Positions 1-12,626 of a stretch of 64,000 bases of DNA are shown here, piece by piece (within the stretch, counting starts at the first letter, position 1; each line of letters begins with the position of its first letter). The position numbers and the translations under genes are program-made. The DNA is from Symbiodinium sp. CCMP2592. Taxonomy: Eukaryota > Sar > Dinophyceae > Suessiales > Symbiodiniaceae. Location: positions 1-64,000 of the forward strand of contig CAJNDT010006153.1 of NCBI GenBank assembly GCA_905221615.1. The letters run 5' to 3'. Below the pieces are notes generated by a model. It was not told the DNA's origin, ran no database searches, and saw nothing but the letters and a program-made list of their open reading frames with translations.

Positions 1-305
1 GATGTGCAATACTGCGTCGATTGTGCCAAGTCCAATGTGCCGCAATGAGGCAATTCAAAGGTTGATGTTTGCCGACGCCCTTGAGTAGGGCGTGTCGGGA
101 GGCTTCGTTGTCGCAGCATTGAACGTAGAACTGATCCAGCCACGGTTCGAAGACCAACGGTGCCAGTATCGCTACCCATGCTTCGAGAAGGTAGATGAAG
201 GCCTGGTCGGAGGCAAACTGTCGAACAAGTAGTGAAGGAAGACGACCCTGGAAGTAGGCGGCGGTTTGCACGTCACCGTGGTGGAAGCAAACCGCCGCCC
301 AGCCG
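1..305 (-). pseudogene. RNase H C-terminal half, out of frame with the pol ORF
   Basis: On the minus strand a frame different from the main pol ORF runs from copy 1 of the 137-bp duplication through EAWVAILAPLVFEPW and then QCCDNEASRHAL to the window edge. A DNxxA motif of this kind is the expected late RNase H aspartate, so this is the natural continuation of the domain begun in ORF1. The duplication separates the two halves by a frameshift. The frame is still open at base 1. Confidence 0.7.
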
Positions 306-442
306 TCGCTACCCATGCTTCGAGAAGGTAGATGAAGGCCTGGTCGGAGGCAAACTGTCGAACAAGTAGTGAAGGAAGACGACCCTGGAAGTAGGCGGCG
401 GTTTGCACGTCACCGTGGTGGAAGCAAACCGCCGCCCAGCCG
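169..442. repeat. 137-bp exact tandem duplication inside the RNase H domain
   Basis: Bases 169-305 and 306-442 read identically, with a sharp break on either side. As 137 is not a multiple of three, reading through the second copy shifts the frame. The pol ORF then ends at a TAG at 172-174 instead of continuing through RNase H. It could be a recent duplication in this copy or an assembly error. Confidence 0.9.
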
Positions 443-3312
443 TTTTCGATGTCGGACGTCGACTTTGAGTCCCAATTCGGGATGTCGCTGTCTCCCGGCT
501 TGTAGATGGTGGAGCCAAGCCGGAAGTATGCGTCCGTATAGATGACGCTGTATGTCGGCTTGGTCGGTGTGCGTGGTATCGTCATTGGTCGGCAGTGCTG
601 TATGATGTCCTTGAGGGCGAGCAGTGATGAGCGCGTGGGCTTGTCGAGGGCATGTGAGTAGGAGTGAGCTCGAGAATAAAGTGCCTTCAGGGCCGCTCGG
701 CCCACCTTGCCAAATAGTCTCCCAGTCAGGAAGTTGCACTTCCCGGCCATCTTCCTGGCTTGCTCGGGGGACAATGACGAAGTAGCCAGGTGTGTGTCGA
801 TTTGTCTACACATGTTTTCGACTCTCTTTGGACAAGGTGTGAGGACCAAGTGATCGTCGTCGGATGAAATGATGACTCCTTGTATACGATGTGCTGTTTG
901 CGGTGGTTGACGTTTACTGGGCTTCATCGATATCTGGAGACATCCGTTGTACTCCTCGAAGGACTCGAAGCTGCCTTTGGCGAGGTCGGAGTCTTCCATA
1001 GATCCGTAGTCGTCGACGTAGTGCATGGCTGGAGACAAGATCATCGTTCGGCTGCATGCCACGAGAATGTCGCCGAATCGATTGTAAGACCAGACACTTG
1101 CGGCCGATCCGAAAAGAAGGACATTGTGGCTCCACAGCGTTGGGCCGTCCGGGGTCAGCAACATCACATAGGCTTCTCGAGGATCACGAAGTGGAAGTTG
1201 GCGATAAGCCCCGTCGTGGTCATGTCCCCAAACAGACAAGGGTTTCGAGTGATCGGTTCGGAGTGTAGCGAGTCCCAAGGAAATAAAGTGGTCGGGTGTG
1301 TGATGGTACGGTTGGTCGTGCATGGTGCAGGTCGCATTGTGGCCACTCCGGCGCCAATCTTCGCCTCGTCGGACTTTGTTGTTGCCATCGCTGCCGGTCT
1401 GTTCGATGCTGAAAGCCATGGCGATGTAGGGATCGGAGTGTGGTAGTGGTAACAGGGCTCGATGTTTCCCTTTTGGTGGTACCGTGGCGGCGCGAGGCCA
1501 CCAGTCGGGGGCTTGATAAGGTCCGTTCATGCGTCCCATGTCGACTTCGGCCAGGATTTCATCCAGCATCAGTTCCCAATGTTCGTCGACGGAATTCTTC
1601 TCGATCTTGTCGTGGATGTACTGTCGGTTCTTGTCACCAAACTCGTCGATCGGTGTGGGTTCGAGATATTTAAGGTCTTGTCGAACGTGCCAGTTGATGC
1701 CTGGGGTCAACTTGCCCATCAAGGGGAAACCTTCGGAGAGTTCGCGATATATCAGCTCTGTTTGTGGGTATTGGATCAGTCGTAGTAAGTGAACGAGTAC
1801 TGGGATCTGTGTGACTGAATCCTTGTGTCGGTATGCTCGTTGTACGTGTTCTGGGAGTGTGTGATACCAGGCCATGGTGTAATCCTCCATGTCTTCGACG
1901 AGCTCGCGGATGTCGGCGATGATCGCTTTCTGGAAATCTACGAGTGGGTGAAACACATGTCGATGTTGTAGACACCACTCGAGGGTAGGATCCAGTGGCT
2001 TCGGAGCCAAGTGTGTGTCGCGATGAAGTGCCCAATCGAGGTGTTCTGTCCAGGAGAACTGAGGCATGTAGTTGTGTGTCGTGGAACGAGGAGGAGGACC
2101 GAAAGGGACTTTGTGGTGTAGCCACAAGGCAGTAATCTGTTGGAGAGCCGAAGATCGTGGTGTGTCGGGGATGGTCGCGTTGACGGTCCCGAGAAGCAGC
2201 AGGAACATGATCCAAACTGCCGTGGGGAGATGCCAAGAGTTGCCTAAAGCAACGCATCGTTTGGTTTCGTCGCCCTGGGCGAGTGTGGCGGTGTAGTCCA
2301 GCGGTAGACCTTGAAGTTGTTCTCGAAGTGTGGCGGGTGCTGTAGACCATGTGCCATCGGGCAATGTCACCAAGAACTGCTCCTCGTACTGCCACACGCG
2401 GTACCGACGATTGTCCTGTTCCCATCGTTGCCACGCATCATGTGAAGTCGAGCGATCTCGGAGATGTGTAGGCGGATCTCGGCCCGTAGTCGATGTTGAT
2501 GGTGTAGTCAAGCAATGGAAAAGTTTCCTGTCGCTATGGAGGCATGGGGGAAGGGAGTAGTCCTTCGTCTTGATGTGTGTCTGCAATTCCTTAGCGATCG
2601 GGTTATGGAGTCGGTGCCATGTTCCCTCAAGTTTCCAGTCCAAGGACCAAGGTGTGAGTCGTGGAAGGCGTTCCTCAATGATGTTCCAAGGGATCGATGT
2701 CCACCACAGCCGCTTCCGGTGCATGATTCCGGCGTCGGCTGCATCGACGACTATGGGGTCCATACTCAGTGGCGATGTGAGCTCAAGCAAGTTGTCGTGA
2801 ACATCCGGGTGAGGAACCACGTTCTCGAAGATCGTTTCAATGGCGATGCCAGTGAAGCGTTTCCGGAGTTGGTGTTCGATGCCTACCATGTGACTGAAAA
2901 GCCAACCCGATGTGCCCTCGGAGCCTGGGGGTCGGTGACGCAAGTTCGAAAAATCGGGGCAAGGTGGTCCAGCGGTTATCACCATTATGTATTGTTGATG
3001 GAGAGTAGCAGAATCGATGTGCTCCGCGACGGACTCGATGTCGAACTGTGTCACGTCCCCCATTTGTATGGATCCGAAGTGTTGTGAGGTAAACTGTGCA
3101 CATTCGAGGTCGATCTCCCAAGAAAGGGTCAGGAGGATGTGCCCATTGATTCGTCGTAGTGCTTCGGAGGCAATCCCGATACCATCGAAGAAGGACAGGT
3201 GCACCACCGGTAAGGTGCCGACCAGCTCGTAGCACAATGTACAAGTTCGGTCGTGTAACTCTGTCGGTCGATGGTCGGCTCCAGGGTCGGTAGACCCTGG
3301 GCCGTGCTGTCC
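172..3312 (-). CDS. Pol: C5-cytosine methyltransferase - reverse transcriptase - RNase H (ORF1), expressed from a TAG readthrough frame
   Basis: The frame is open from the TAG that ends ORF2. Counting from the TTG at 3237, the methyltransferase covers about residues 10-345: motif I FFDGIGI (16-22), motif IV PPCPDFS with the catalytic Cys near 93, motif VI ENV (138-140), motif VIII HRKR (173-176) and motif X GNS (332-334). After a linker comes the RT, with the motif A stretch HDHDGAYRQLP near 670, motif B around LLFGSAASVW near 710 and the catalytic YVDD near 740. RNase H begins with IYTDAYF near 900 and is cut by the 137-bp duplication; the last ~43 residues are frameshifted. The first ATG is residue 59, inside the methyltransferase, so neither TTG nor that ATG is a convincing start. 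The enzyme should copy element RNA. The methyltransferase could modify element or host DNA; its activity is inferred from intact motifs only. Confidence 0.85.
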   Translation of the reverse strand, partial: GQHGPGSTDPGADHRPTELHDRTCTLCYELVGTLPVVHLSFFDGIGIASEALRRINGHILLTLSWEIDLECAQFTSQHFGSIQMGDVTQFDIESVAEHIDSATLHQQYIMVITAGPPCPDFSNLRHRPPGSEGTSGWLFSHMVGIEHQLRKRFTGIAIETIFENVVPHPDVHDNLLELTSPLSMDPIVVDAADAGIMHRKRLWWTSIPWNIIEERLPRLTPWSLDWKLEGTWHRLHNPIAKELQTHIKTKDYSLPPCLHSDRKLFHCLTTPSTSTTGRDPPTHLRDRSTSHDAWQRWEQDNRRYRVWQYEEQFLVTLPDGTWSTAPATLREQLQGLPLDYTATLAQGDETKRCVALGNSWHLPTAVWIMFLLLLGTVNATIPDTPRSSALQQITALWLHHKVPFGPPPRSTTHNYMPQFSWTEHLDWALHRDTHLAPKPLDPTLEWCLQHRHVFHPLVDFQKAIIADIRELVEDMEDYTMAWYHTLPEHVQRAYRHKDSVTQIPVLVHLLRLIQYPQTELIYRELSEGFPLMGKLTPGINWHVRQDLKYLEPTPIDEFGDKNRQYIHDKIEKNSVDEHWELMLDEILAEVDMGRMNGPYQAPDWWPRAATVPPKGKHRALLPLPHSDPYIAMAFSIEQTGSDGNNKVRRGEDWRRSGHNATCTMHDQPYHHTPDHFISLGLATLRTDHSKPLSVWGHDHDGAYRQLPLRDPREAYVMLLTPDGPTLWSHNVLLFGSAASVWSYNRFGDILVACSRTMILSPAMHYVDDYGSMEDSDLAKGSFESFEEYNGCLQISMKPSKRQPPQTAHRIQGVIISSDDDHLVLTPCPKRVENMCRQIDTHLATSSLSPEQARKMAGKCNFLTGRLFGKVGRAALKALYSRAHSYSHALDKPTRSSLLALKDIIQHCRPMTIPRTPTKPTYSVIYTDAYFRLGSTIYKPGDSDIPNWDSKSTSDIENGWAAVCFHHGDVQTAAYFQGRLPSLLVRQFASDQAFIYLLEAWVATAGRRFASTTVTCKPPPTSRVVFLHYLFDSLPPTRPSSTFSKHG

Positions 3313-3315
3313 CTA
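3277..3315 (-). promoter_or_regulatory. Candidate stop-codon readthrough signal: TAG plus downstream stem-loop
   Basis: The ORF2 stop (TAG, 3313-3315) is followed in frame by GGA CAG. Twelve nt after the TAG lies a perfect 8-bp hairpin (3281-3300) with arms CCAGGGTC and GACCCTGG and loop TACC. With one bulged A the stem gains GGC/GCC and then starts 9 nt after the stop. Stop, short spacer and stable structure is the layout used by gammaretroviral gag-pol readthrough. The downstream frame has no ATG before its first domain. Confidence 0.7.
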
Positions 3316-4638
3316 TTTCTTGCCGGACTTACCGGATTTGCCCTTCTTGCCGGCGCCTTTCGAGCCTTTGTCTCCCTTCGCGTTCCAAGGAGGTCGTGTT
3401 TGAGATACATGAGGAGCCGGGTTCAGTGGCAGGGTCGGTGATGGTGTCGGAGTAAAGAAAGTCGGCGTCGTAGGAGATGTCCATGCTTGTGTCGGGGTGG
3501 CTTGCCAAGAAGACATGGCCTGTGTGGTCCACGTAGGTGTCGAAGGTTGCCATGAGCGCCATGGTGTAGTCGGATTGGACCAGGGTTGTCGATATCGCCG
3601 TCCTTGTCCTGGAGGTGACCACTTCTGCTGATATCCTTTTCCTTTCCCTTTCGGGGTCTGTTCGGCGCCTTTGCCGAATCGCTGTTTCTTCGACAGCGGT
3701 TGTTGTATGACGTCGTTGACTCTGGTGAGGTCGTTGATGAGGTCGTCGGTGATCGCTTGGAAGGTCTCGTTAGATCGCATGCGCATGGCGATGTCCCAAG
3801 AGAATTCTTCCCAAAGGCTCTTCACGTTGTTAATGCGTTGTGAATGTTTGCGTACGAGACGAATGAACCAATCGACGTATTTGTTGACGACCGTCTCGGA
3901 GGCATACTTAATGAGGATCCAGGCCCATCGGATTGCCTCGATCGCGTCTATGAGCATCCATTGGCCTCGCACATCCCACTCATCGTGTGATTTCTCGGTG
4001 ATGTTATTGCGCTCGTCGAGGACCAGTTTCTTCTCGTGCGTATCCTTCTTCCTGGCCGAGTTGATCGTGTCGAAGCTAGTCCAGATCCTTTGTGACACTA
4101 TCTCGCCAAGTGCTGTGGCGGTGTACATCTTCGATGTATGGTGCTCGTGATACATCCGAGCGAGTACCTTCTCCGCCCCGACTAGATTCTTCTCGGGGAA
4201 CTGGCGTCGTTCGCCGTCCACGGTGATGCTATTGTAATCCTCGACCAGTTTGTTGTAGACACCCGTCGGGAGAGTCTTGGGGACGACGTCTTTGTCGGTG
4301 TGGGACGAAGTAGTAGTGGTCGGCAAGGTCGGGGAAGCTGAAGGTGTCGGAGTTGTCGTAGCAGCATGGTAAGCGAGTCGGGCAGACTGAGTGAGTACCA
4401 TCCACTGGGCGGTGAGGGCGTCTTCGTCGGTGTCATCTCCGAGCTTGAACTCCACGCCCCCCGCCTTGGCGCCCGCCTTGAGCTTCGTGATCACATCTTT
4501 GATGCTCGCGTCATCCTTGAGGTACGTGCCGATGGTCGCATGAGACTTCAAGCCGAGTTTGGCCAAGTATCGGGCTACAACATCTGTAGTCAGGTCGATG
4601 CCGGCTAAGTCGGCCGCGTCCTGAAGTGGATTGCTCAT
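3313..4638 (-). CDS. Gag-like protein with Lys/Gly-rich tail (ORF2)
   Basis: The 441-aa protein starts at an ATG and has no match that I recognise. Three parts can be seen: an N-terminal region of about 100 residues with alternating acidic and Lys-rich helices, a Thr/Pro/Ser linker with repeated TPT and a charged helical middle; then a Pro/Trp/Gln/Gly-rich region (around WSPPGQGRRYRQPW); and finally a tail of Gly-Lys-Ser repeats. No zinc knuckle is present. Position just upstream of pol, the shared frame with ORF1 and the basic nucleic-acid-binding tail all suggest a capsid/nucleocapsid role. That role is inferred from context. Confidence 0.7.
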   Translation of the reverse strand: MSNPLQDAADLAGIDLTTDVVARYLAKLGLKSHATIGTYLKDDASIKDVITKLKAGAKAGGVEFKLGDDTDEDALTAQWMVLTQSARLAYHAATTTPTPSASPTLPTTTTSSHTDKDVVPKTLPTGVYNKLVEDYNSITVDGERRQFPEKNLVGAEKVLARMYHEHHTSKMYTATALGEIVSQRIWTSFDTINSARKKDTHEKKLVLDERNNITEKSHDEWDVRGQWMLIDAIEAIRWAWILIKYASETVVNKYVDWFIRLVRKHSQRINNVKSLWEEFSWDIAMRMRSNETFQAITDDLINDLTRVNDVIQQPLSKKQRFGKGAEQTPKGKGKGYQQKWSPPGQGRRYRQPWSNPTTPWRSWQPSTPTWTTQAMSSWQATPTQAWTSPTTPTFFTPTPSPTLPLNPAPHVSQTRPPWNAKGDKGSKGAGKKGKSGKSGKK

Positions 4639-4810
4639 GTTCGTCGAGAGATTCGGACTCGGGCAAAAATTGCTCTAATGAAAGGTCAGGCTGACGTGAC
4701 ATGTCTTCGTTGGCAACTCGAGGTGACATGAGGTCTGCATCGAGCTTTTTGCGTTCGGATGATCGGGACGAAGCCGGTGACACATCGCCGAGGCGGAAGT
4801 CAGTCGGCTA
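4639..4810 (-). other. Intercistronic gap ORF3-ORF2
   Basis: This gap of 172 nt holds one copy of the covarying hairpin, starting 8 nt after the ORF3 TGA. Just before the ORF2 ATG the minus strand reads GCCCGAGTCCGAATC (4654-4668), similar to the CCCGA-rich stretches in front of ORF3 and ORF4. Confidence 0.6.
4778..4802 (-). promoter_or_regulatory. Intercistronic covarying hairpin, copy 1
   Basis: On the plus strand the arms TGAC and GTCA flank a 17-nt core, ACATCGCCGAGGCGGAA. The core itself contains the self-complementary CGCC/GGCG. It lies 8 nt downstream of the tyrosine-recombinase stop. Confidence 0.65.
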
Positions 4811-6361
4811 TCAGTCCTCATCCTCATCGGGCTGTGCGTCGGCGAAGGCTTGTGCCTCGAGTAATCTGAAACATCGTTTGCATTTTGGGCCTGATGGTTC
4901 GCGATACTCGCGGCGATGCGGTGCAAAACCGTATGGCCATCCGCAAATTGTGTGCCAATGTGTGTTATCGCAGGATGATTCGGAGATTCCCGGTAAGTGC
5001 ACGATCTTAGTTAAGGAGTTCACAACCCAGAATTTGGTACGGAGAGTCTCGAGGTATTGTGCGACCATCTCACGGACTTGTTCGGGCTTGTTCGGGGTCT
5101 CGGGCCTGTGGAACTCATCGCCTCGGTGCAAGGGGGACTCTTGTACATAAACTTTGATAGCATCACTGCCCCATCGACCTATCAGTTGAACGGTGTCCAG
5201 TGGGAAACCTCGTCGTGTGAGCATCTGAGATCCAGATACTCGACAGACATGCTCGCAGAACCGATCGAGTAAGGCTCCGTTCGGTCCCATGCGAGTCATC
5301 GAGGTCCCAGTAGCAGAGATCACAGAGCGAAAGATGTCGATGGTCTGATGATGATCAAGTGGTTGTCCGTCCGTGCCAGGAAAGAGGGGGCCGTCTCGAG
5401 AGCATCCTAGTGATTGTAGAAGGTCAAGATGTCGTTGTAGTGCGTGAAAGGGGCATAGTCGTGGAGATGTCGAACAGCAGCATGGGTGTGATCTGGTCAC
5501 GCACAAACCCACAATGTCCGTCTTCGTGCACGGCAGGGTGATGAACGCGGTGCGTCCGGCGTGTGTGATCTCCACCCACGCCTGGCCGAAAGTCACCGAA
5601 GCTGCCTCGATGCCTCGCAGTAGCCACCAGCAGCAGATGATTACCATGTCCACTCGATGTCGTAGTCGTCGTGCCCACGGATGGGGACCATCGAAGTCTT
5701 CGTCTGCGGGTCGTACTGGTAGTCGTGCAATGTCCTCGACGACGAAGGAGTCCTTGAGTTTAGCAGGTCCTCGTCCCCGTTCGACGGCCCTTTCGACTTG
5801 TTTCATCTTGAGGCAGACTTCGGGTGGCACCGAGGTACAAGTCTGTGCCACGTGCTCTTGTCGGGCTTGGCTGAAGATCTGCTTCGCGGACTTGTAACCT
5901 CCCGATCGCAAACTGGCACCGATCGCGTCAACCAGTCGCACCGAGAGTGGCAATGGATCGAGATCCCACGCATCGGCGAGAGCAGTCCAAAGCTTCCACC
6001 TCGAATCTCGAGACTTCTGTGTCGTCATCGCGTAGGTATTGGTCTGGAGGTCCTCCAAGGAAGCTCTTCGTTGTTCTGGTTTGGCTGCTTCGAGTGCCCT
6101 GGCTAAGGAACCTCGGGATGAAGGGTTACACCGAGGTAAATCTCGTCTCCGCACCGGCACGACTTCGCGTGGCATCGGTCTGCGATCGAGTGCCGACCGT
6201 AGTCTGTCTAGGTCAAGTCGGCTTGGGGCAATCTCCACGAGGACATTTTCGGATGTTCCCCGGAGTTTCTCGGGTGTATTGATCCCGCGTTTGGCCAACT
6301 CGGGTGCCAAAGCGGTCAAGTCGTGTGATCGCAGGAGCGCAAGCACATCTGCGAACGACAT
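4811..6361 (-). CDS. Tyrosine recombinase / integrase (ORF3)
   Basis: The 516-aa ORF has an ATG start and TGA stop. The catalytic set of the tyrosine recombinase family is in order: Arg249 in WWLLRGIEAAS, Lys280 in PCTKTD, His371-x-x-Arg374 in HVCRVSGSQ, Trp397 in IGRWGSD (where many relatives have His) and the nucleophile Tyr405 in IKVYVQESP. Residues 1-230 would form the helical DNA-binding part. The C-terminal ~80 residues add a Cys/His cluster (CGWPYGFAPHRR, CKRCF) and an acidic end. Such enzymes integrate the circular DNA copy of DIRS-type elements by site-specific strand exchange through a 3'-phosphotyrosine. No mutated catalytic residue is seen, so the enzyme may be active. Confidence 0.85.
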   Translation of the reverse strand: MSFADVLALLRSHDLTALAPELAKRGINTPEKLRGTSENVLVEIAPSRLDLDRLRSALDRRPMPREVVPVRRRDLPRCNPSSRGSLARALEAAKPEQRRASLEDLQTNTYAMTTQKSRDSRWKLWTALADAWDLDPLPLSVRLVDAIGASLRSGGYKSAKQIFSQARQEHVAQTCTSVPPEVCLKMKQVERAVERGRGPAKLKDSFVVEDIARLPVRPADEDFDGPHPWARRLRHRVDMVIICCWWLLRGIEAASVTFGQAWVEITHAGRTAFITLPCTKTDIVGLCVTRSHPCCCSTSPRLCPFHALQRHLDLLQSLGCSRDGPLFPGTDGQPLDHHQTIDIFRSVISATGTSMTRMGPNGALLDRFCEHVCRVSGSQMLTRRGFPLDTVQLIGRWGSDAIKVYVQESPLHRGDEFHRPETPNKPEQVREMVAQYLETLRTKFWVVNSLTKIVHLPGISESSCDNTHWHTICGWPYGFAPHRREYREPSGPKCKRCFRLLEAQAFADAQPDEDED

Positions 6362-6607
6362 GAGGTGGGGCTTCGGGCAAGGTTCGGGAACCGTGGGCTA
6401 AGTCGCTGGTAGTTTCGGGCCACGGGATCCACAGAACTGTGGAAACTCTGAGACGTGAGGCGTAAGAGAGCGATAACAAGAAAGTCTAATTATGCAAGAG
6501 CTCGGCATTTGTTTTGTCATCGATGTGCCAATCGAGAGTCCTCGAGCTTTGAGCTGGGGGATCGGGTTACAAGCTTCGAAATGTACAGAGCCGCATCCCT
6601 TCCAGTA

Positions 6608-6633
6608 TCGCACATCGCCGAGGCGGAAAGCGA
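6608..6633 (-). promoter_or_regulatory. Intercistronic covarying hairpin, copy 2
   Basis: Arms TCGC/GCGA flank the same core with one extra A (18 nt). The arms differ from those of every other copy, yet pair. Confidence 0.65.
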
Positions 6634-6721
6634 AACCGAAGAGGACGGGTTGTCGAAGCGGCACCGGCGCGGTGCGATAAAGTCGGGTGAATAACCCGAG
6701 TCGACACTGTCGGGTATCAGA

Positions 6722-6750
6722 ACACTAACGTCGCCGAGGCGGAATAGTGT
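6722..6750 (-). promoter_or_regulatory. Intercistronic covarying hairpin, copy 3
   Basis: This copy has the longest arms, ACACTA/TAGTGT (6 bp), around a 17-nt core with a single A-to-G change (ACGTCGCCGAGGCGGAA). It begins 28 nt after the ORF4 TAG. Confidence 0.7.
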
Positions 6751-6778
6751 CTGTTTCCCGTGTGGGTCGATGTAGCGG

Positions 6779-8923
6779 CTACTGTGCCGCCTGTGCGTCT
6801 CGTCGACGGCCCTTGAGCAACTCCAGGTGATCGGTGTCCACGTGGGTAAAGGACAAGTCGCCGACCATATATTGTCCCAGACGCAATCGTGTGTATGCGA
6901 GACTCATGAACCGGAGGAAGTCGTCCTGGGTCATGATGATGGTGTCATCGGCGTCATAGTGGTATGTGGCGAATTGGTAGGTAGGGGGATCGGCGAGGGC
7001 TGAGTTGATGTCATAGGACTCGAAATGTGCCTTGGTGTTGAGGGTCTCGTCGAAGGGCTTGGCGGGATGTGAGGCAGTTGGCAGTAGATCCAGCCGGTAC
7101 TTCTTCGTTGTGGTCGAGTTGCGATTGTAGATCTCGAGGAGGTTGTGACTGGACCAGGTAACCGACTCGAAGTAATCGAGCTTCTGGTGCTTCATCTGCT
7201 CGTCGCGGAGGGCCCCCGCGAGTTTATCGCGGATATCGTCGTCTCCGAGGTCTCGCCGGATGCCGCTCATGATCTGTTTGAGCCGGCCAATCAAGGCGTC
7301 GTCGTCTTTGCGCTCCCACTCCATGAGATAGAGCATGTAGTCACCGCCATCGGAGGTAAGTCGTTGTCCAGTCGGGACTGGAACCGTGGCATCGACTTCG
7401 AGGGTGGTGCCGTCACCGTTGATGATCAGAGCCTTCTGGGCGGGCACAAAGGTCGGTGCATTCGTGGATGACGCGTTGTTTCGAAGTGCCCAAGGTCTAT
7501 ACGCGGTCAAACATCGCGGGCAAGAGTACCGACCGTGTTGCGAGGAAATCGAGTAGTCCCACGAGATCTGTCGGAGCCAATGGTGATTGTGTATCACCGA
7601 GGTGCAATCCTTCGAGCGACAGACGAAGTGTTGGTCGATGCTGTCGGAGACACGAAACAACCAATCGGTGAGTGGGGCCTCGGCGGTAACCATGTTCCAG
7701 AACTCATCGGCGTTCCAGTTCGGGGCGATGGATCGAGCGACGGTCGTGACCTCCCACTGGGCGAAGGCTTGGAACACTCGCTGCTTCTGGTCGGAGTCAA
7801 GCTTGGCGAGGTCCGCGACGAAAATGTCGGTGAGGCGTAGTATTCGACTTCGTACCTCGCGTCGAATGTTCGACTTGCTGTCGCCAGGCCTTTCGCGTTC
7901 GATGTCCTCGCACATTTGCTTCCACGAAGCGGCTCGCTTCCTCGAGGTTTCGAGGTTGATCTGCTTGCGCACGGAGTTGACCTTCTGGCAAATCGTGTAC
8001 CAGTCGGGGATGCTGATCGTGTCGTAGCGGGTCGAGTTCTTGCGGACGAATGTCGGCTTCCGGACCCAACGACACTTCGCGGTATCCCAGTAGTTGTCGA
8101 AGAAGACCTTGCAGTAGAATCCATGCGTTCGCTCGATCGCGATGTGCCACCCAGGCGGCTTGACTTCGTGGTTGTCGTCGCGATCGTAGAGCTGTCGACG
8201 GTCCTTGTGGTTGTAGGGAAGGTCTCGGAGGTTGCCTCGTACTCCTATCTTGGCCGGTGACAGGTCGGAGTTCTCAGCGTACCACACGAAGTCCTCGTTG
8301 GCTCCGGTTGCGCACTGGTAGCAACACCTGTAATGGATGTTGCGCCAGTCGTCCTGGCCGTCGGGGTTAACCGAGAGGAGATAGTAAGGCGGAAACAGCA
8401 GACCACAAAAGGTGCAATCGATGGATCCATCGTGGATTTTGTCGTTGGCCGGAGTGCTGAAGTACTTGAGGTACATCTCGACTCGGTCGACATCGCGTTT
8501 GTGGTGATCTTCGATCGATGTCCCATCGCGACCAATGAGCTCGATGGGCATGCCGTTCTCGTCGACCTCCTCGCCGGTAAGTTGTCGGCGCCAAATCGCC
8601 GCCAGCTCGGAGTCTGTCGAGTTCGGGAACTGCTTTCGTAGTGATGACATCGCGAGCTGTTCGGAGGCTCGTCTGAAAGCGATGACCTCCAAGGCTCCCT
8701 GGGTGTGATGGTCATCGTAGAGCCTTCGTTGTAATTTCAGTGCTCGGCCCTCGTCAGTGTCCGGGTGGACTCCCTCGAGGTATCGAGCGGCCGGCAAAAC
8801 TGCTCCGGAGCTGCTGCCGGGCGTTTGGGAAAACTGCTCGATGGGATCGAGCTGAGTCGCCGATGTCTCGGGGAACTGTTCAATCGGATCCGACTCAATC
8901 GGGGACTGGCGAGAGTGTGCCAT
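6779..8923 (-). CDS. Unknown Cys/His-cluster protein of the retroelement (ORF4)
   Basis: The ATG at 8923 (GAAGTGATGG, good context) gives 714 aa; the frame is open a little further upstream from a GTG. I do not recognise the family. The N-terminus is Pro/Gln/Ser-rich and repeats DPIEQF twice. A Cys cluster follows at about residues 170-204 (CTFC and CCYQC), then a basic, aromatic-rich region around GFYCKVFFDNYWD, a long charged helical region with many Arg/Lys, and a second cluster near 435-471 (CRSKDC, HNHHW, CPRC). The two clusters look like zinc-binding modules. Since it is encoded between the CCCH protein and the recombinase, it may act in replication or integration of the element, but the sequence does not show which. 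Confidence 0.7.
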   Translation of the reverse strand: MAHSRQSPIESDPIEQFPETSATQLDPIEQFSQTPGSSSGAVLPAARYLEGVHPDTDEGRALKLQRRLYDDHHTQGALEVIAFRRASEQLAMSSLRKQFPNSTDSELAAIWRRQLTGEEVDENGMPIELIGRDGTSIEDHHKRDVDRVEMYLKYFSTPANDKIHDGSIDCTFCGLLFPPYYLLSVNPDGQDDWRNIHYRCCYQCATGANEDFVWYAENSDLSPAKIGVRGNLRDLPYNHKDRRQLYDRDDNHEVKPPGWHIAIERTHGFYCKVFFDNYWDTAKCRWVRKPTFVRKNSTRYDTISIPDWYTICQKVNSVRKQINLETSRKRAASWKQMCEDIERERPGDSKSNIRREVRSRILRLTDIFVADLAKLDSDQKQRVFQAFAQWEVTTVARSIAPNWNADEFWNMVTAEAPLTDWLFRVSDSIDQHFVCRSKDCTSVIHNHHWLRQISWDYSISSQHGRYSCPRCLTAYRPWALRNNASSTNAPTFVPAQKALIINGDGTTLEVDATVPVPTGQRLTSDGGDYMLYLMEWERKDDDALIGRLKQIMSGIRRDLGDDDIRDKLAGALRDEQMKHQKLDYFESVTWSSHNLLEIYNRNSTTTKKYRLDLLPTASHPAKPFDETLNTKAHFESYDINSALADPPTYQFATYHYDADDTIIMTQDDFLRFMSLAYTRLRLGQYMVGDLSFTHVDTDHLELLKGRRRDAQAAQ

Positions 8924-9134
8924 CACTTCGGGTGGATCGGGAGGTTCGGGTAACACGAGTAGAGCTTGAGAGGTCGAAGTCTACGGAAGCCAAGCAATCT
9001 CCAAGGAGAGAGCAGGCCCCACTACAACTAGTAGAGCCTGATGCAACCGAGTAACATGTCCTACAAGCAAGCACATTTGGTCTTGTCGTCGTATGTAACG
9101 AGTCATTCGGGAGGTCGAGACCTACGGGTCAGGT

Positions 9135-9159
9135 GGACGCATCGCCGAGGCGGAAGTCC
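9135..9159 (-). promoter_or_regulatory. Intercistronic covarying hairpin, copy 4
   Basis: Arms GGAC/GTCC enclose the 17-nt core GCATCGCCGAGGCGGAA. Confidence 0.65.
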
Positions 9160-9192
9160 CCTTCTACCGAAACGGTCACTGACCCGGAAACA

Positions 9193-9219
9193 CCCGTACA
9201 TCGCCGAGGCGGAAACGGG
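9193..9219 (-). promoter_or_regulatory. Intercistronic covarying hairpin, copy 5
   Basis: Arms CCCGT/ACGGG (5 bp) enclose the 17-nt core, which is identical to that of copy 1. It begins 43 nt after the ORF5 TGA. Confidence 0.65.
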
Positions 9220-9262
9220 GCGACCGTGAGACCTAAAGGTCGGGTAGGCCTCGTGTAAAGGC

Positions 9263-11554
9263 TCACGCATTCTCGCGGAATCGCAGGATGAAAGCCGGCG
9301 GCTCCGCGGCTATCATCGATCGCATTCGCTCGTGTTGGGCGAAGGCACTTCGCATCGCCGGTGAGAGCATATTCGAAGTGCATGAAAGGATCGCCGAGGC
9401 CTGCTCCCTAAAGAAGGTCTGCATGGGCTCGAAGTATGGCATCTGCGCCGCGAAGGTGTTGAGATTCCTCGCCGTGTGGCACCAAATTCGGAGTCGGTTC
9501 ATCCGATCTTCCACCGAAGTATGGTTCAGGTCGGAGAGAGAGGCGGTGATGCTGTGCCACACCATCGAGTAGATCAAGGTAGTCCGGGGTTCCACGAAGT
9601 TATTCGGGACACCCAGGAGCAACACCCGTTCCTGCAGTACATCGTCTTGCGGGGTGTGGATCGGGAGGTCGATGTAAAGGCCGTATTGGGTGAGGTAGCT
9701 CCCGAAAGTAGGGCATCGGAGTACCTGTTCGATGTAGATGATGCCATCGTACGTGATCTCCCATGGAGTGTCGAAGGCGAAGGAGGAGTAGGGGTGATTG
9801 CCAGGTGGCAACATCGCGACATTGTGGCCACCCACCGGCGTCATCGCTTGCAAATTCGCCGACATCATCGGAAAGTTGTCGAAGTGGCGCAGTGTTTGAA
9901 AGCCAAACACTGGCTCGTGTGATGTCGGTGCGTTGGATCGGACATCGTCGATCGAAGTGCGCCCTTTCTCCACCACCTGCGAGTCGCGCCACTGCACTCG
10001 GAATCTCTCGAGGCATGACTGTCGTGGTGGTTGTGGCTGAACCGCGACCGGCACACTCGTGTAAGGATTCCCCAAGGAGGTCGCGATAGTCGAGGAAGAG
10101 GCCGCCCCCGACTCGTTGGTATCTGGCCGGAAGACTTGCCTCGGGTCATTTCGTGTCAAGTCCACAGCAGGGTGGACGGAGAATCTCGGAGGCACGACTC
10201 TTCCAAGCCCCGCGGAGCTGTCGGCGTCGGGGTGTGGTCGTTTGGGCATGGCCTTGGTCTTGGCGCTCACGAGAGTCGTAGTAGCGGCAGCCCCAAAGGA
10301 TGGGTTGATCCACTCGGATTCACTCGCGGAATTGGCCACCGGCCCAGAGCTCCTTGGTTCCATCGATGTCGCAGAGTTGGCTGTAGTAACCACGATCGGA
10401 GGAGTCGGTGGTGGTGTCGCGGAATCATCGTCCTCGTGCCAAGGATCTGGCGACCTCGGCCTCGTCTGAGGTGTCGTGGTAGTCGGTGGGGCCGCCGGAG
10501 TCGTGGCCGGTGTCGAAGCGGCGATCTCATCCGGGATTTCGACGATCACCGGGGTCTTAGAATCGAGCCATCTCTTCGCCGGCGACGGGGATCTCTTCGG
10601 GAATCTCGCCGGAGAAAGTGGTCGTTGTGATCCCCTGGCTGCTCCATCGCCGTGGCGGAAAGCAGTTCGGGGTTCACGGCCGAAGCTGGGTGCATCGGAG
10701 TCCGTATCCGTGCTGACCTGGAAGAAAGTTCTCCTTGGTGTCGGCGGAGTCGGCGTAGTCGAAGGTGCCGCAGATGGGAAAGCCGCCGGAGGTGCTGTCG
10801 ATGGCGCTGCTGTAGAGGGGGCTGACGAGGGAGCCGCTGAAGGAGGCCATCGGGGTCTCGAAGTCGGGAAAATCGCTCCCCGTGTCGGAGTGGGGTGTTG
10901 TCCCCAGGTCGCCGGAGGTCTCGAGTCCTCGCGAACTCTACGGGGAGATCGTCCTCGACGATGCAGGCCATCCGCGATTTCTTGTCGTAGTTGGTGGGCA
11001 ACATCAGATTTATCCCACGATTCGTAGTCATAGTACCGAAGGAAGTTTGTGCCGAAGTTGAACTTGCGCATCTCGGCGGAACGGAAAGTGGTCATCGAGT
11101 CCATGATCCACTCACGAGCCTGTGCTCGGTTGACCTGCTCGATGATTCCGTTCTTCGACGAGTAATGGTAAGGTGGTTCACCTCGACGATTCTGTCGCTG
11201 TACTACGAAAGCCTGTCGCATAGCTTCGTCGAAAGTGTGGCCATGTTGATTCCAGCACGTATTGTGGTACTCGCAGCATCCCTGGAACCATTTGTGGCAG
11301 ATGAGGTTGGGCACTACCCACTGTTTGTTGAGGAAATCGGGGTGAAGAAAACCACAATTGGCCATGTTACAGTTCTTCTTCTCGAGAAGGCGGGGACAAA
11401 GCTGTCGTCGTATCTCGGAGATGGGTACTTGGGCCGTGTCGCTGACTACTTCGGGGTACTCGTTAAGCATCGACTCAGGAACAGGGGCCGTCATCTTCAC
11501 CAACGTGCCCTCGCAGAGAAAATCGAACCATGAGTCGGCTCGGGTACGTGCCAT
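9263..11554 (-). CDS. CCCH zinc-finger protein of the retroelement (ORF5)
   Basis: I start it at the ATG at 11552-11554 (GTAGCCATGG, strong context), 13 nt after the ORF6 stop, giving 763 aa. The frame is open to 11767, but that extra part overlaps ORF6 and reads as hydrophobic noise. Two CCCH fingers lie near the N-terminus: C53-x8-C62-x4-C67-x3-H71 and C86-x7-C94-x5-C100-x3-H104. Fingers of this type usually bind single-stranded RNA. The middle (about 240-560) is low-complexity Pro/Ala/Ser/Thr/Arg with SPAR-type repeats. The C-terminal ~200 residues look globular (around FAFDTPWEITYDGIIYIEQ). RNA binding, for example packaging or translation of element RNA, is inferred from the fingers. The C-terminal domain is unknown. 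Confidence 0.75.
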   Translation of the reverse strand: MARTRADSWFDFLCEGTLVKMTAPVPESMLNEYPEVVSDTAQVPISEIRRQLCPRLLEKKNCNMANCGFLHPDFLNKQWVVPNLICHKWFQGCCEYHNTCWNQHGHTFDEAMRQAFVVQRQNRRGEPPYHYSSKNGIIEQVNRAQAREWIMDSMTTFRSAEMRKFNFGTNFLRYYDYESWDKSDVAHQLRQEIADGLHRRGRSPRRVREDSRPPATWGQHPTPTRGAIFPTSRPRWPPSAAPSSAPSTAAPSTAPPAAFPSAAPSTTPTPPTPRRTFFQVSTDTDSDAPSFGREPRTAFRHGDGAARGSQRPLSPARFPKRSPSPAKRWLDSKTPVIVEIPDEIAASTPATTPAAPPTTTTPQTRPRSPDPWHEDDDSATPPPTPPIVVTTANSATSMEPRSSGPVANSASESEWINPSFGAAATTTLVSAKTKAMPKRPHPDADSSAGLGRVVPPRFSVHPAVDLTRNDPRQVFRPDTNESGAASSSTIATSLGNPYTSVPVAVQPQPPRQSCLERFRVQWRDSQVVEKGRTSIDDVRSNAPTSHEPVFGFQTLRHFDNFPMMSANLQAMTPVGGHNVAMLPPGNHPYSSFAFDTPWEITYDGIIYIEQVLRCPTFGSYLTQYGLYIDLPIHTPQDDVLQERVLLLGVPNNFVEPRTTLIYSMVWHSITASLSDLNHTSVEDRMNRLRIWCHTARNLNTFAAQMPYFEPMQTFFREQASAILSCTSNMLSPAMRSAFAQHERMRSMIAAEPPAFILRFRENA
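10639..10665 (-). promoter_or_regulatory. Covarying hairpin, copy 6, inside ORF5
   Basis: Arms CTGCT/AGCAG flank CCATCGCCGTGGCGGAA, a 17-nt core with two changes from copy 1. It lies in the low-complexity part of ORF5, where it is translated as part of TAFRHGDGAAR. Confidence 0.5.
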
Positions 11555-11567
11555 GGCTACGAATTGG

Positions 11568-12107
11568 CTAGTCCAAATCGATGGTAATCGAGGTAGTGGG
11601 CTTGAGATGCCCTTCGAAGTTCCGCTTTCGAGCTTTAGAGGCAGCGGGTTCGGGAGTATGTAATTCCATGCCAAAATCATCACGAAAAATGTCTGCCAAA
11701 TGCTGATTATGCAGATCGGTCTCATGCACAAGAAGAGCAGCATCGGTGTCAGCTGGTAGGGGTGCATGATCGGAGTCGGGGTGTAGGGAAGCCTCGACGA
11801 TCTCGAACGGCACCGTCAGCGGCTCCGCGGACTCGTCGCGGTTGGTGATGTGCAGGTACAGGAAGGCCTCGAGGTTGGGCGGTTTCAGCAAAGTCGCCGC
11901 AAGATTGACAATGTCGTTCGCCGTCTGACACTGGGCGATGTGATCGAGTGCCTTTCGTATTTGTCGGGATTGTCGCTTGTTCCAAGCTCCCCACGTCACA
12001 TCCTCGGGTTTCTCGACTTGAAAATCTTCGAGAACTTGCTCGCGACTGAATTCCTCGAGCGATTCCTTCAGACTGTCAACAACTGACAGAGAAGCCGTAG
12101 TGCTCAA
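11568..12107 (-). CDS. Small acidic protein of the retroelement without an ATG (ORF6)
   Basis: The frame is open from a TAG at about 12167 to a TAG at 11568-11570. The given start is a TTG; the only Met is near the C-terminus, so initiation must be non-AUG (a CTG CTG pair lies slightly upstream) or the ATG has been lost. The ~179 residues are acidic at the N-terminus (SLEEFSREQVLEDFQ), then WGAWNKRQSRQIRKAL with a helical look, and end with a basic KARKR patch. No family recognised. Its place as the first cistron after the leader and its tight coupling to ORF5 suggest a structural or regulatory role, which is a guess. Confidence 0.55.
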   Translation of the reverse strand: MSTTASLSVVDSLKESLEEFSREQVLEDFQVEKPEDVTWGAWNKRQSRQIRKALDHIAQCQTANDIVNLAATLLKPPNLEAFLYLHITNRDESAEPLTVPFEIVEASLHPDSDHAPLPADTDAALLVHETDLHNQHLADIFRDDFGMELHTPEPAASKARKRNFEGHLKPTTSITIDLD

Positions 12108-12157
12108 GGTACTGGCCGCCAGCAGCGGTCGTAGTAGTGCTCGGGGTACTGGCCGCC
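12097..12157. repeat. Imperfect 24-bp direct repeat in the element leader
   Basis: Bases 12097-12120 and 12134-12157 match at 22 of 24 positions, 37 bp apart. The two changes turn the TTG used as ORF6 start into CCG in the other copy. The second copy runs into a perfect 14-bp palindrome (12152-12165, GCCGCCCGGGCGGC). Confidence 0.75.
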
Positions 12158-12206
12158 CGGGCGGCTATGACCGAGGAGTGATCCGAGGGGACTGAAACAA
12201 AATTTC

Positions 12207-12229
12207 GCTCAAGCTGTAACAGCTTGAGC
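12207..12229. repeat. Snapback palindrome at the spliced-leader 3' end
   Basis: The 11-nt arms GCTCAAGCTGT and ACAGCTTGAGC pair perfectly around one base. One arm contains the last seven bases of the spliced-leader copy; the other is an inverted partial copy followed by AAAT/TTTG-like sequence. A TTTTGTTTCAG acceptor-like stretch follows on the minus strand (about 12191-12201). Confidence 0.8.
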
Positions 12230-12244
12230 CAAAATGGCCACGGA
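12223..12244 (-). other. Dinoflagellate spliced-leader copy (one mismatch)
   Basis: The minus strand contains CCATTTTGGCTCAAG preceded by TCCGTGG; the dinoflagellate leader has CCGTAG at that place, so 21 of 22 positions agree. The next bases are CTG, not the GT splice donor of an SL RNA gene. This is therefore a leader attached to a message and copied back into DNA, or a leader kept by the element as its 5' end. Confidence 0.85.
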
Positions 12245-12626
12245 GTATACAATCATTCGACATGAATCGGTGAGTCAATCCCCCGACCGATTCGGTGTTT
12301 AAGTGAGATATGAAGTTGTCACTTCGCACAAACAAGTGTGTGCTACACATGAATATGAATTTACATGTGCGTAGTTACTGATATTGGATATTCGGAATTA
12401 TGTTTAGCTCTATCTATATATATATATATGTATGTATGTATGTATGCATGTATGTATGTCTCTCTCTCTCTCTCTCTCTCATTCTCTCCTTCTCGCTATC
12501 TATCTGTCTATCCATCCATCCGCCCAACAAAAGCTAAAACATCACACCGTGCCCTGAACTCTAAACCCCAAACCGAGGCTGCCAAAGATGTTACCGGACG
12601 TATGCCGCATGTTCTGAATTCCCACA
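12245..12626. other. Flank of the element with a compound microsatellite
   Basis: No gene. An 8-bp inverted repeat GAATCGGT/ACCGATTC is present near 12263-12294. A compound tract of TATC, TA, ATGT and CT units covers 12411-12524. The element's exact right boundary probably lies between 12244 and 12410. Confidence 0.5.

Follow-up and report, generated by a model that had tools for sequence, protein, structure and literature searches.

The window considered here, a stretch of 64,000 nucleotides from Symbiodinium sp. CCMP2592 (contig CAJNDT010006153.1), carries on the minus strand of its first part (1-12.35 kb) a retrotransposon that, judged from its sequence, fits the SymbioDIRS-Dnmt3 type and matches the elements of PMC5890265 as these are presented in the available part of that paper. 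Its open reading frames (ORFs) follow each other in the sense order A, B, C, YR (tyrosine recombinase), E and Pol. The sense RNA of this element almost certainly contains seven copies of one hairpin, eight in the window, the outer stem of which has varied in sequence yet is nearly always paired, with the fold being maintained by selection.

The element and its hairpins

All ORFs lie on the minus strand. ORFA (11568..12164, a stop-to-stop frame) is separated by 13 nt, counted from its stop, from the ATG of ORFB (9263..11554, with the start near 11554 and the stop at 9263), which has CCCH-like Cys/His motifs close to its N-terminus. ORFC (6779..8980, also a stop-to-stop frame, with a probable start near 8923) has no assigned function and is followed by the YR ORF (4811..6361), by ORFE (3313..4638), which has a basic C-terminus and is Gag-like by position alone, and by Pol (172..3312), which continues the frame of ORFE across a UAG and comprises a Dnmt3-like methyltransferase, a reverse transcriptase and a part recognised as RNase H-like by eye. 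The 5′ end of the element, at about 12349, is common to the window and eight related loci (L129 is not alignable there), while its 3′ end is truncated by the contig start. SymbioDIRS-Dnmt3 elements carry two sets of terminal repeats (A and B); the compared 5′ and 3′ pieces show no common repeat.

The hairpins, all of them on the minus strand, are named after their sites: J1a and J1b in the gap between ORFB and ORFC, J2a and J2b in the gap between ORFC and YR, J3 after YR, B in ORFB and P in Pol. J1a (9193..9219; 42.8 bits with the covariance model introduced below) is the first after the ORFB stop, at 43 nt, and precedes J1b (9135..9159; 41.0 bits). J2a (6722..6750; 40.1 bits), whose stem continues beyond a bulge, is placed 28 nt after the ORFC stop and is followed by J2b (6608..6633; 31.5 bits), J3 (4778..4802; 41.4 bits) lies 8 nt past the YR stop, and B (10639..10665; 29.6 bits) is located within the ORFB coding sequence. 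These six copies had been noticed in an earlier inspection of the letters, here called the sequence-only reading, and their positions hold: at up to 3 mismatches the core has 6 matches in the 64 kb, where 0.12 would be expected, and none elsewhere. The pairing arms, the single orientation, the core length of 18 nt in the copy at 6608 and the spacing of 8-43 nt from the preceding stop are also as described there. The core it printed is present but antisense, as the ORFs are on the minus strand, and in the RNA it reads UUCCGCCUCGGCGAYGN.

The count of six proved too low. A degenerate scan allowing any paired inner stem detected the seventh site, P, in the RNase H-like part of Pol (392..438; 35.6 bits), where an inner stem of CAC/GTG replaces CGC/GCG and the arms pair over 13-15 bp. 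This site is present twice, its second copy (255..301; 35.6 bits) resulting from a 137-bp perfect tandem duplication, so that the core TTCCACCACGGTGACGT is found at 270-286 and at 407-423 (sense starts 286 and 423). The duplication, which spans positions 169-443 and puts this copy of Pol out of frame, may be genuine or may have arisen in the assembly. The sense core of the whole family is UUC-CRC-YNCG-GYG-AYG. In the fold, the outer stem leads to an asymmetric internal loop with UUC opposite AYGN, followed by an inner stem of 3 bp and a loop that by its sequence belongs to the UNCG class.

The covariance model was trained on 38 hairpins, which include P rows of other loci, with J2b, B and both P copies of the window being outside the training set. 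Applied to the window, it recovered eight places scoring 29.6-42.8 bits, the next best having 13.2 bits (E 0.47). Folding of single sequences gave z values of -2.63 to -3.79 against shuffles for J2a, J2b, J3 and P, but less distinct ones for J1a (-1.69), J1b (-1.39) and B (-1.41); as these three fold only modestly better than shuffled sequences, the case for the hairpin rests on covariation.

Conservation in related copies

Genome scans were performed on the species' own 1.098-Gb assembly, in which the core at up to 2 mismatches has 791 matches, compared to 290 for the reversed pattern. Two looser searches were uninformative: an overly degenerate core pattern gave 11,967 matches, fewer than its reversed control (20,738), and the P-core pattern at up to 1 mismatch gave 199 matches against 304 in the control, that is, no enrichment, with the 100 places listed all being exact. 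To obtain relatives, 20 stretches surrounding exact cores that are unusually spaced and then 8 short ones were fetched; these 28, picked for their spacing or as single places among 100 places listed, are not a random sample. All 28 carry ORFs of the element. The core is therefore not a common dispersed repeat unrelated to ORF junctions, an explanation that can be rejected.

In four loci with protein identities of only about 44-80% (L129, L133, L138 and L139), the hairpins found hold orthologous places and orientation, with a pair behind ORFB, two or three behind ORFC, and single ones behind YR and inside ORFB. The hairpin inside Pol is present in all four stretches whose Pol match extends there (the window, L135, L140 and L147). 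Altogether, 107 hairpins were counted at the seven orthologous sites in the window and 20 loci (21 stretches), 75 of them distinct when flanks are included. Four core-like places were left out before this count (two in L137, one in L140 and L133:8053). Those in L140 (9853) and L137 (675 and 1093) are one and the same antisense core-like sequence of the 3′ region, TTCCGCTTCGGTGGCGT, which has neighbouring arms that do not pair and is probably due to chance. Two J2a-type hairpins only 62 bases apart were observed at L138:5139-5229, with arms GGCCACTC/GAGTGG, which indicates that the family can grow by local duplication. L142 (1179-9901) holds two pieces of the element, 95-97% identical to the window, in opposite orientation and meeting near the YR start.

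A sampling independent of the hairpin was obtained with a pattern derived from the recombinase, which identified 97 YR copies in the genome and none in the control. The J3 piece was examined in 40 of them (33 with rarer codon types and 7 with the commonest), and a J3 core within 4 mismatches was present in 38/40, with all four arm pairs formed in 37/40. L158 and L171 are without J3, and one core variant with UCC (L186) appeared in this best-match scan, where no letter was required.

Covariation of the stem and form of the loop

The first four arm pairs were formed in 288 of 300 cells (75 distinct rows), of which 285 were Watson-Crick and 3 G-U, with no A-C, whereas shuffled controls reached 51% on average and 62% at most (2000 shuffles). 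The arms of B and J2b were offset by one base by eye in this count, which penalises J2b of L138. Homologues that keep the core thus keep the pairing of the arms as well. Exceptions include L145:2362, L137:7030, J1a of L135, J1b of L143, L151, L152 and L186, and an inner pair is broken at L138:5336. The 8 short stretches contributed a further 12 hairpins, 10 of them with all four arm pairs.

For covariation, an alignment of 38 selected rows was used, which left out all 14 B-site rows, the J2b rows except that of L138, J2a of L137, where 2 nt are inserted, and rows identical over 29 nt. There, pairing reaches 94.7% of cells, and 92 cells carry changes on both sides, compared to 31.5 in shuffles. 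The covariation score of 0.711 contrasts with 0.168 for shuffles and with at most 0.184 when the partner arm is slid, which also lowers the pairing to 20-55%. Double-sided Watson-Crick swaps occur at seven orthologous pair positions (B3, B5, J1a5, J1b5, J2a1, J2a6 and J3-4): T-A to C-G in J3, C-G to G-C in J1a, G-C to A-T in J1b, T-A to C-G and G-C to C-G in B, and twice A-T to C-G in J2a, the latter in L138 alone; related rows in these counts are not independent events. Pairing and covariation above shuffles support the selected fold that the sequence-only reading had proposed from six copies.

Several observations weigh against this conclusion. Two of the five covariation measures did not exceed shuffles in the 38 rows, namely the number of double-change pairs, at 6 compared to 5.1, and that of further pair types, at 16 compared to 17.2. 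Of the 12 hairpins not included in the 107, two have interrupted arms, through a G-G mismatch in L151 and a C-A mismatch in L152. Finally, the invariance of the core is in part imposed by the detection scan, which tolerated up to 4 core mismatches and required TC at positions 2-3.

The arms are short, and J1a, J1b and B fold no more than modestly better than shuffled sequences, as would also be expected of inverted repeats arising by chance around a duplicated word. Against this stands the covariation score given above, together with pairing far above that of shuffles and of a viral control sharing the 14-nt core: among the matches listed, from 120 viral contigs, 177 of 480 arm cells were paired and 4/120 places were fully paired. 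A chance origin is accordingly refuted, and its probability is negligible.

The presence of three G-U pairs and the lack of A-C in the 300 cells fits an RNA of the sense strand. The same observation bears on the proposal that the hairpins are single-stranded DNA sites for the tyrosine recombinase. The element does encode such an enzyme, yet the arm sequences are not conserved, there are copies in coding sequence, and the loop obeys a rule of RNA tetraloops, with wobbles being G-U and not A-C; the tetraloop rule and the wobbles lead us to reject a DNA recombination site, which we regard as scarcely credible. The loop is Y-N-C-G in 104/107 hairpins, with all four letters occurring at N, and by its sequence belongs to the UNCG/YNMG class. 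Core positions 1-3 (UUC), 14 (A) and 16 (G) are constant in all 107. C3 and G16 might pair, leaving a bulge of two bases, which is unproven since neither position varies.

The sequence-only reading knew of no described family that matches, and this is borne out by Rfam 15, which has no family at J1-J3 or B in a scan of positions 1-12500. The scan returned 5 matches up to E 5, all to microRNA models far under their gathering scores, including three rows of two such models that overlap the P hairpins. Among the titles and opening lines of abstracts listed from the literature covered, from which subscription journals are mostly absent, no such hairpins are described.

Copies inside coding sequence

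At the B site, 9/9 distinct rows agree at the third position of each of the five core codons, compared to an average of 0.71 for 17 flanking codons, while the third residue of the encoded peptide can be H, P, S or L. At the P site, third positions differ in 4/30 cases inside the hairpin and in 93/264 in the flanks, which reach 60 codons upstream and 28 codons downstream; this comparison covers 3 sequences, and a wider flank (349/678), which includes misaligned upstream sequence, was not used.

Homologous proteins extend this picture. The B-site peptide in two homologues from protein collections (P0024 and P0025) is FRQGD, and among the 95 aligned of 120 Pol homologues the P site reads FHQGDV in six and FRQGDV, FRQGDA and FYHGDS in one each. 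Two unrelated sites have undergone a parallel change to Q, which suggests an apex evolving in concert, as far as can be judged from protein sequences, in which P0024/P0025 are not shown to share elements with P0027-P0033; Q at both places is what a single shared binder would impose. On the other side of the balance, the motif is missing at that place in 86/95 aligned Pol homologues, so the P copy is at least not ancient in DIRS elements. One Pol homologue of 44% identity (P0074) has FRRGD one residue off the P-site position, either by coincidence or perhaps as a displaced copy of the motif.

Cistron junctions and expression of the element

Five of the six copies originally noticed do lie in the three long intercistronic gaps, but B and P are located inside ORFs, so placement at boundaries is only part of the pattern. 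In addition, the covariance model found no member of the family at the 13-nt junction of ORFA and ORFB or at the ORFE/Pol junction with its in-frame UAG. From the last hairpin to the next start there are 139, 211 and 246 nt (the start of ORFC being inferred). Past the hairpins, conservation in the J1-J3 gaps drops over a spacer and, in J1, rises again in a second block, which is less pronounced in J3. The block upstream of ORFC in the ORFB-ORFC gap (about 8985-9040, minus strand, CTAGTTGTAGTGGGGCCTGC onward) is possibly an acceptor or another RNA structure.

Evidence on the transcripts comes from spliced leaders. A sequence resembling the dinoflagellate spliced leader with 1 mismatch lies in the 5′ region of the element (12223..12243, minus strand), and similar sequences with 1 to 4 mismatches occur in the 5′ region of several subfamilies; the one in the window is followed by its own complement, forming a hairpin. 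At L148:1861-1900, two tandem relic spliced leaders adjoin the 3′ part of ORFA, at under 100 nt from the start of ORFB, after which the copy continues through ORFB, J1, ORFC and J2 into YR. Relic spliced leaders are, according to the part of PMC12014239 available, the usual mark of a retrocopied trans-spliced mRNA. At least one leader-bearing RNA was therefore polycistronic and uncut at J1 and J2, although this is a single case.

This case bears on three functions that the junctions suggest. Small ribozymes and processing sites have a similar outline of a fixed core and free stems, and together with the junction placement this resemblance would suit a site at which the polycistronic RNA is cut, either by a processing enzyme or as a small self-cleaving ribozyme. 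Rfam has no ribozyme match at the hairpins, though, cuts at B and P would break the ORFs, and L148 derives from an RNA that was not cut at J1 or J2. Compulsory cleavage is rejected on that one case, and a cleavage or splicing site of any kind appears very improbable.

A signal for translation, by which reinitiation or internal entry would yield ORFC, YR and ORFE from one polycistronic RNA, agrees with the hairpins being in the three long gaps and at neither the 13-nt A/B gap nor the UAG junction of ORFE and Pol, as well as with the polycistronic, leader-tagged RNA behind L148. It is difficult to reconcile with starts 139-246 nt beyond the last hairpin, behind less conserved sequence, with the free arm sequence, and with copies in ORFB and Pol that have no known cistron to start. 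With two of seven sites in ORFs and two junctions free of hairpins, the idea of a pure boundary or internal-initiation signal is not supported, and we consider a role in initiation improbable.

The main rival to protein docking, and second in rank, is control through the 3′ untranslated region (3′-UTR), of which the histone stem-loop is an example elsewhere. ORFB, ORFC and YR would each be expressed from a separate trans-spliced mRNA, whose 3′ end, stability or translation would be set by the hairpin adjoining the stop. The first hairpins at 8-43 nt past stops, the spacer followed by a conserved block in J1 and more weakly in J3, as separate acceptor regions would give, and the beginning of the leader-tagged L148 just upstream of ORFB all speak for it; the B and P sites inside ORFs and the L148 RNA, which did not end at J1 or J2 but reached YR, speak against it. 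On balance, it is an unlikely explanation, though one to be taken seriously.

Protein docking as a proposed function

A fixed apex, a free but paired stem and many copies are the form of a protein-docking hairpin. Of the options listed by the sequence-only reading, packaging is the one favoured here, with internal initiation, processing and a recombinase site disfavoured, and we tentatively propose that these are repeated protein-docking hairpins with a selected fold, serving for packaging or identity of the RNA, a statement that as a whole falls somewhat short of being probable. The fixed apex would be the recognition surface for one putative RNA-binding protein, most likely encoded by the element itself, with ORFB (CCCH-like motifs) and the basic ORFE as candidates. 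Repeated docking could single out the full-length RNA, be it for packaging or for reverse transcription: with fewer sites on shorter mRNAs, the genomic RNA would be preferred through avidity. The hairpins would crowd into the gaps since coding sequence tolerates few, and would be in frame where tolerated. The element offers seven structurally equivalent sites, and one genomic RNA carrying all of them is inferred.

Some findings count against docking. The position of hairpins directly past stop codons at three junctions (8, 28 and 43 nt) is not demanded by packaging, and the 5′ region of the element yielded no copy, nor does the set of stretches say much about the 3′ region, to which few of them extend. 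The assignment of candidates is also weak: zf-CCCH was matched in 1/4 ORFB homologues, with a best E of 0.084, and the AlphaFold model of ORFE is uninformative (predicted local distance difference test 40.6).

To our knowledge, the selection and handling of RNA by DIRS-type retrotransposons is largely unstudied, and no description of such a repeated code was found for DIRS elements. A broader reading, in which a dinoflagellate YR retrotransposon tags its own RNA repeatedly, coding sequence included, by a new family of structured RNA with an apex evolving in concert that acts as a packaging or identity code, is possible but rather doubtful. The repeated, covarying apex could be used as a bait for finding the RNA-binding protein (there are 97 matches of the recombinase motif in one genome) and as a marker for related elements, and the hairpins offer a test of how a multi-ORF element is expressed in a lineage with trans-spliced mRNAs.

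Comparison with known systems

The coding capacity allows the element to be compared with SymbioDIRS-Dnmt3. The methyltransferase of Pol matches PF00145 (E 5.1e-9), and all 29 of its matches up to E 1 among solved structures are DNMT3A, 3B or 3C. For the reverse transcriptase, residues 480-966 of Pol have 126 homologues, PF00078 being precomputed on one (P0105) among the 120 listed, and a YVDD motif was read by eye, while a Pfam scan of the window's Pol ORF matched no reverse transcriptase family. The YR ORF scores 17.1 bits against PF00589, under the cut-off of 27.1, yet its HxCR and GRWGS blocks are conserved across 14 aligned sequences; a protein search gave 23 homologues, one of them named Symbiodinium natans, and searches of viral contigs and genome contigs gave no relatives. 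As in the elements of PMC5890265, Dnmt3 and reverse transcriptase are thus in one Pol ORF and YR in a separate one, and the relatives are named Symbiodinium. The difference lies in the hairpins, of which the available part of that paper gives no description; in its main text the word "hairpin" occurs 0 times.

The ORFE/Pol junction has a structure of its own, distinct from the hairpin family (3281..3315, minus strand), consisting of the UAG (3313-3315), a 12-nt spacer and an 8-bp stem-loop (3281-3300). The UAG and an identical spacer GGACAGCACGGC are present in 8/8 sequences (the window and 7 aligned loci), and in the stem G-C changes to A-T in step (CCAGGGTC/GACCCTGG, CCAGAGTC/GACTCTGG and CCAGAATC/GATTCTGG), with one-sided changes in L143 and L145. 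A signal for programmed readthrough of the stop codon is the probable interpretation. In the available part of PMC2194720, gag-pol of murine leukaemia virus and of Tca2 is expressed by such readthrough, with a purine-rich spacer (8 nt in Tca2) and a pseudoknot. In common with these, the element has an in-frame stop, a spacer and then a structured stretch separating Pol from the ORF that precedes it, whereas the spacer here is longer (12 nt) and a plain 8-bp hairpin is predicted.

For the hairpins themselves, MS2, satellite tobacco necrosis virus and enterovirus-E provide cases of multiple dispersed packaging signals, as outlined in the accessible portions of the sources, in which coat protein makes contact with one RNA at a number of hairpins or RNA sites. 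They differ in that coat-protein binding is reported there and not here, and in that the window element is a tyrosine-recombinase retrotransposon. A further comparison is with oriL domain d of enteroviruses. According to the part of PMC5633025 at hand, YNMG is the consensus of UNCG-class tetraloops, with CUCG and CACG among its members, and a YNMG/UNCG hairpin in domain d is bound by the enterovirus 3C protein. The window hairpins differ from oriL by their seven dispersed copies and conserved UUC/AYG internal loop, and the comparison is a functional one, with no homology claimed; they share the tetraloop consensus and its free N with oriL, to which the docking of a viral protein belongs.

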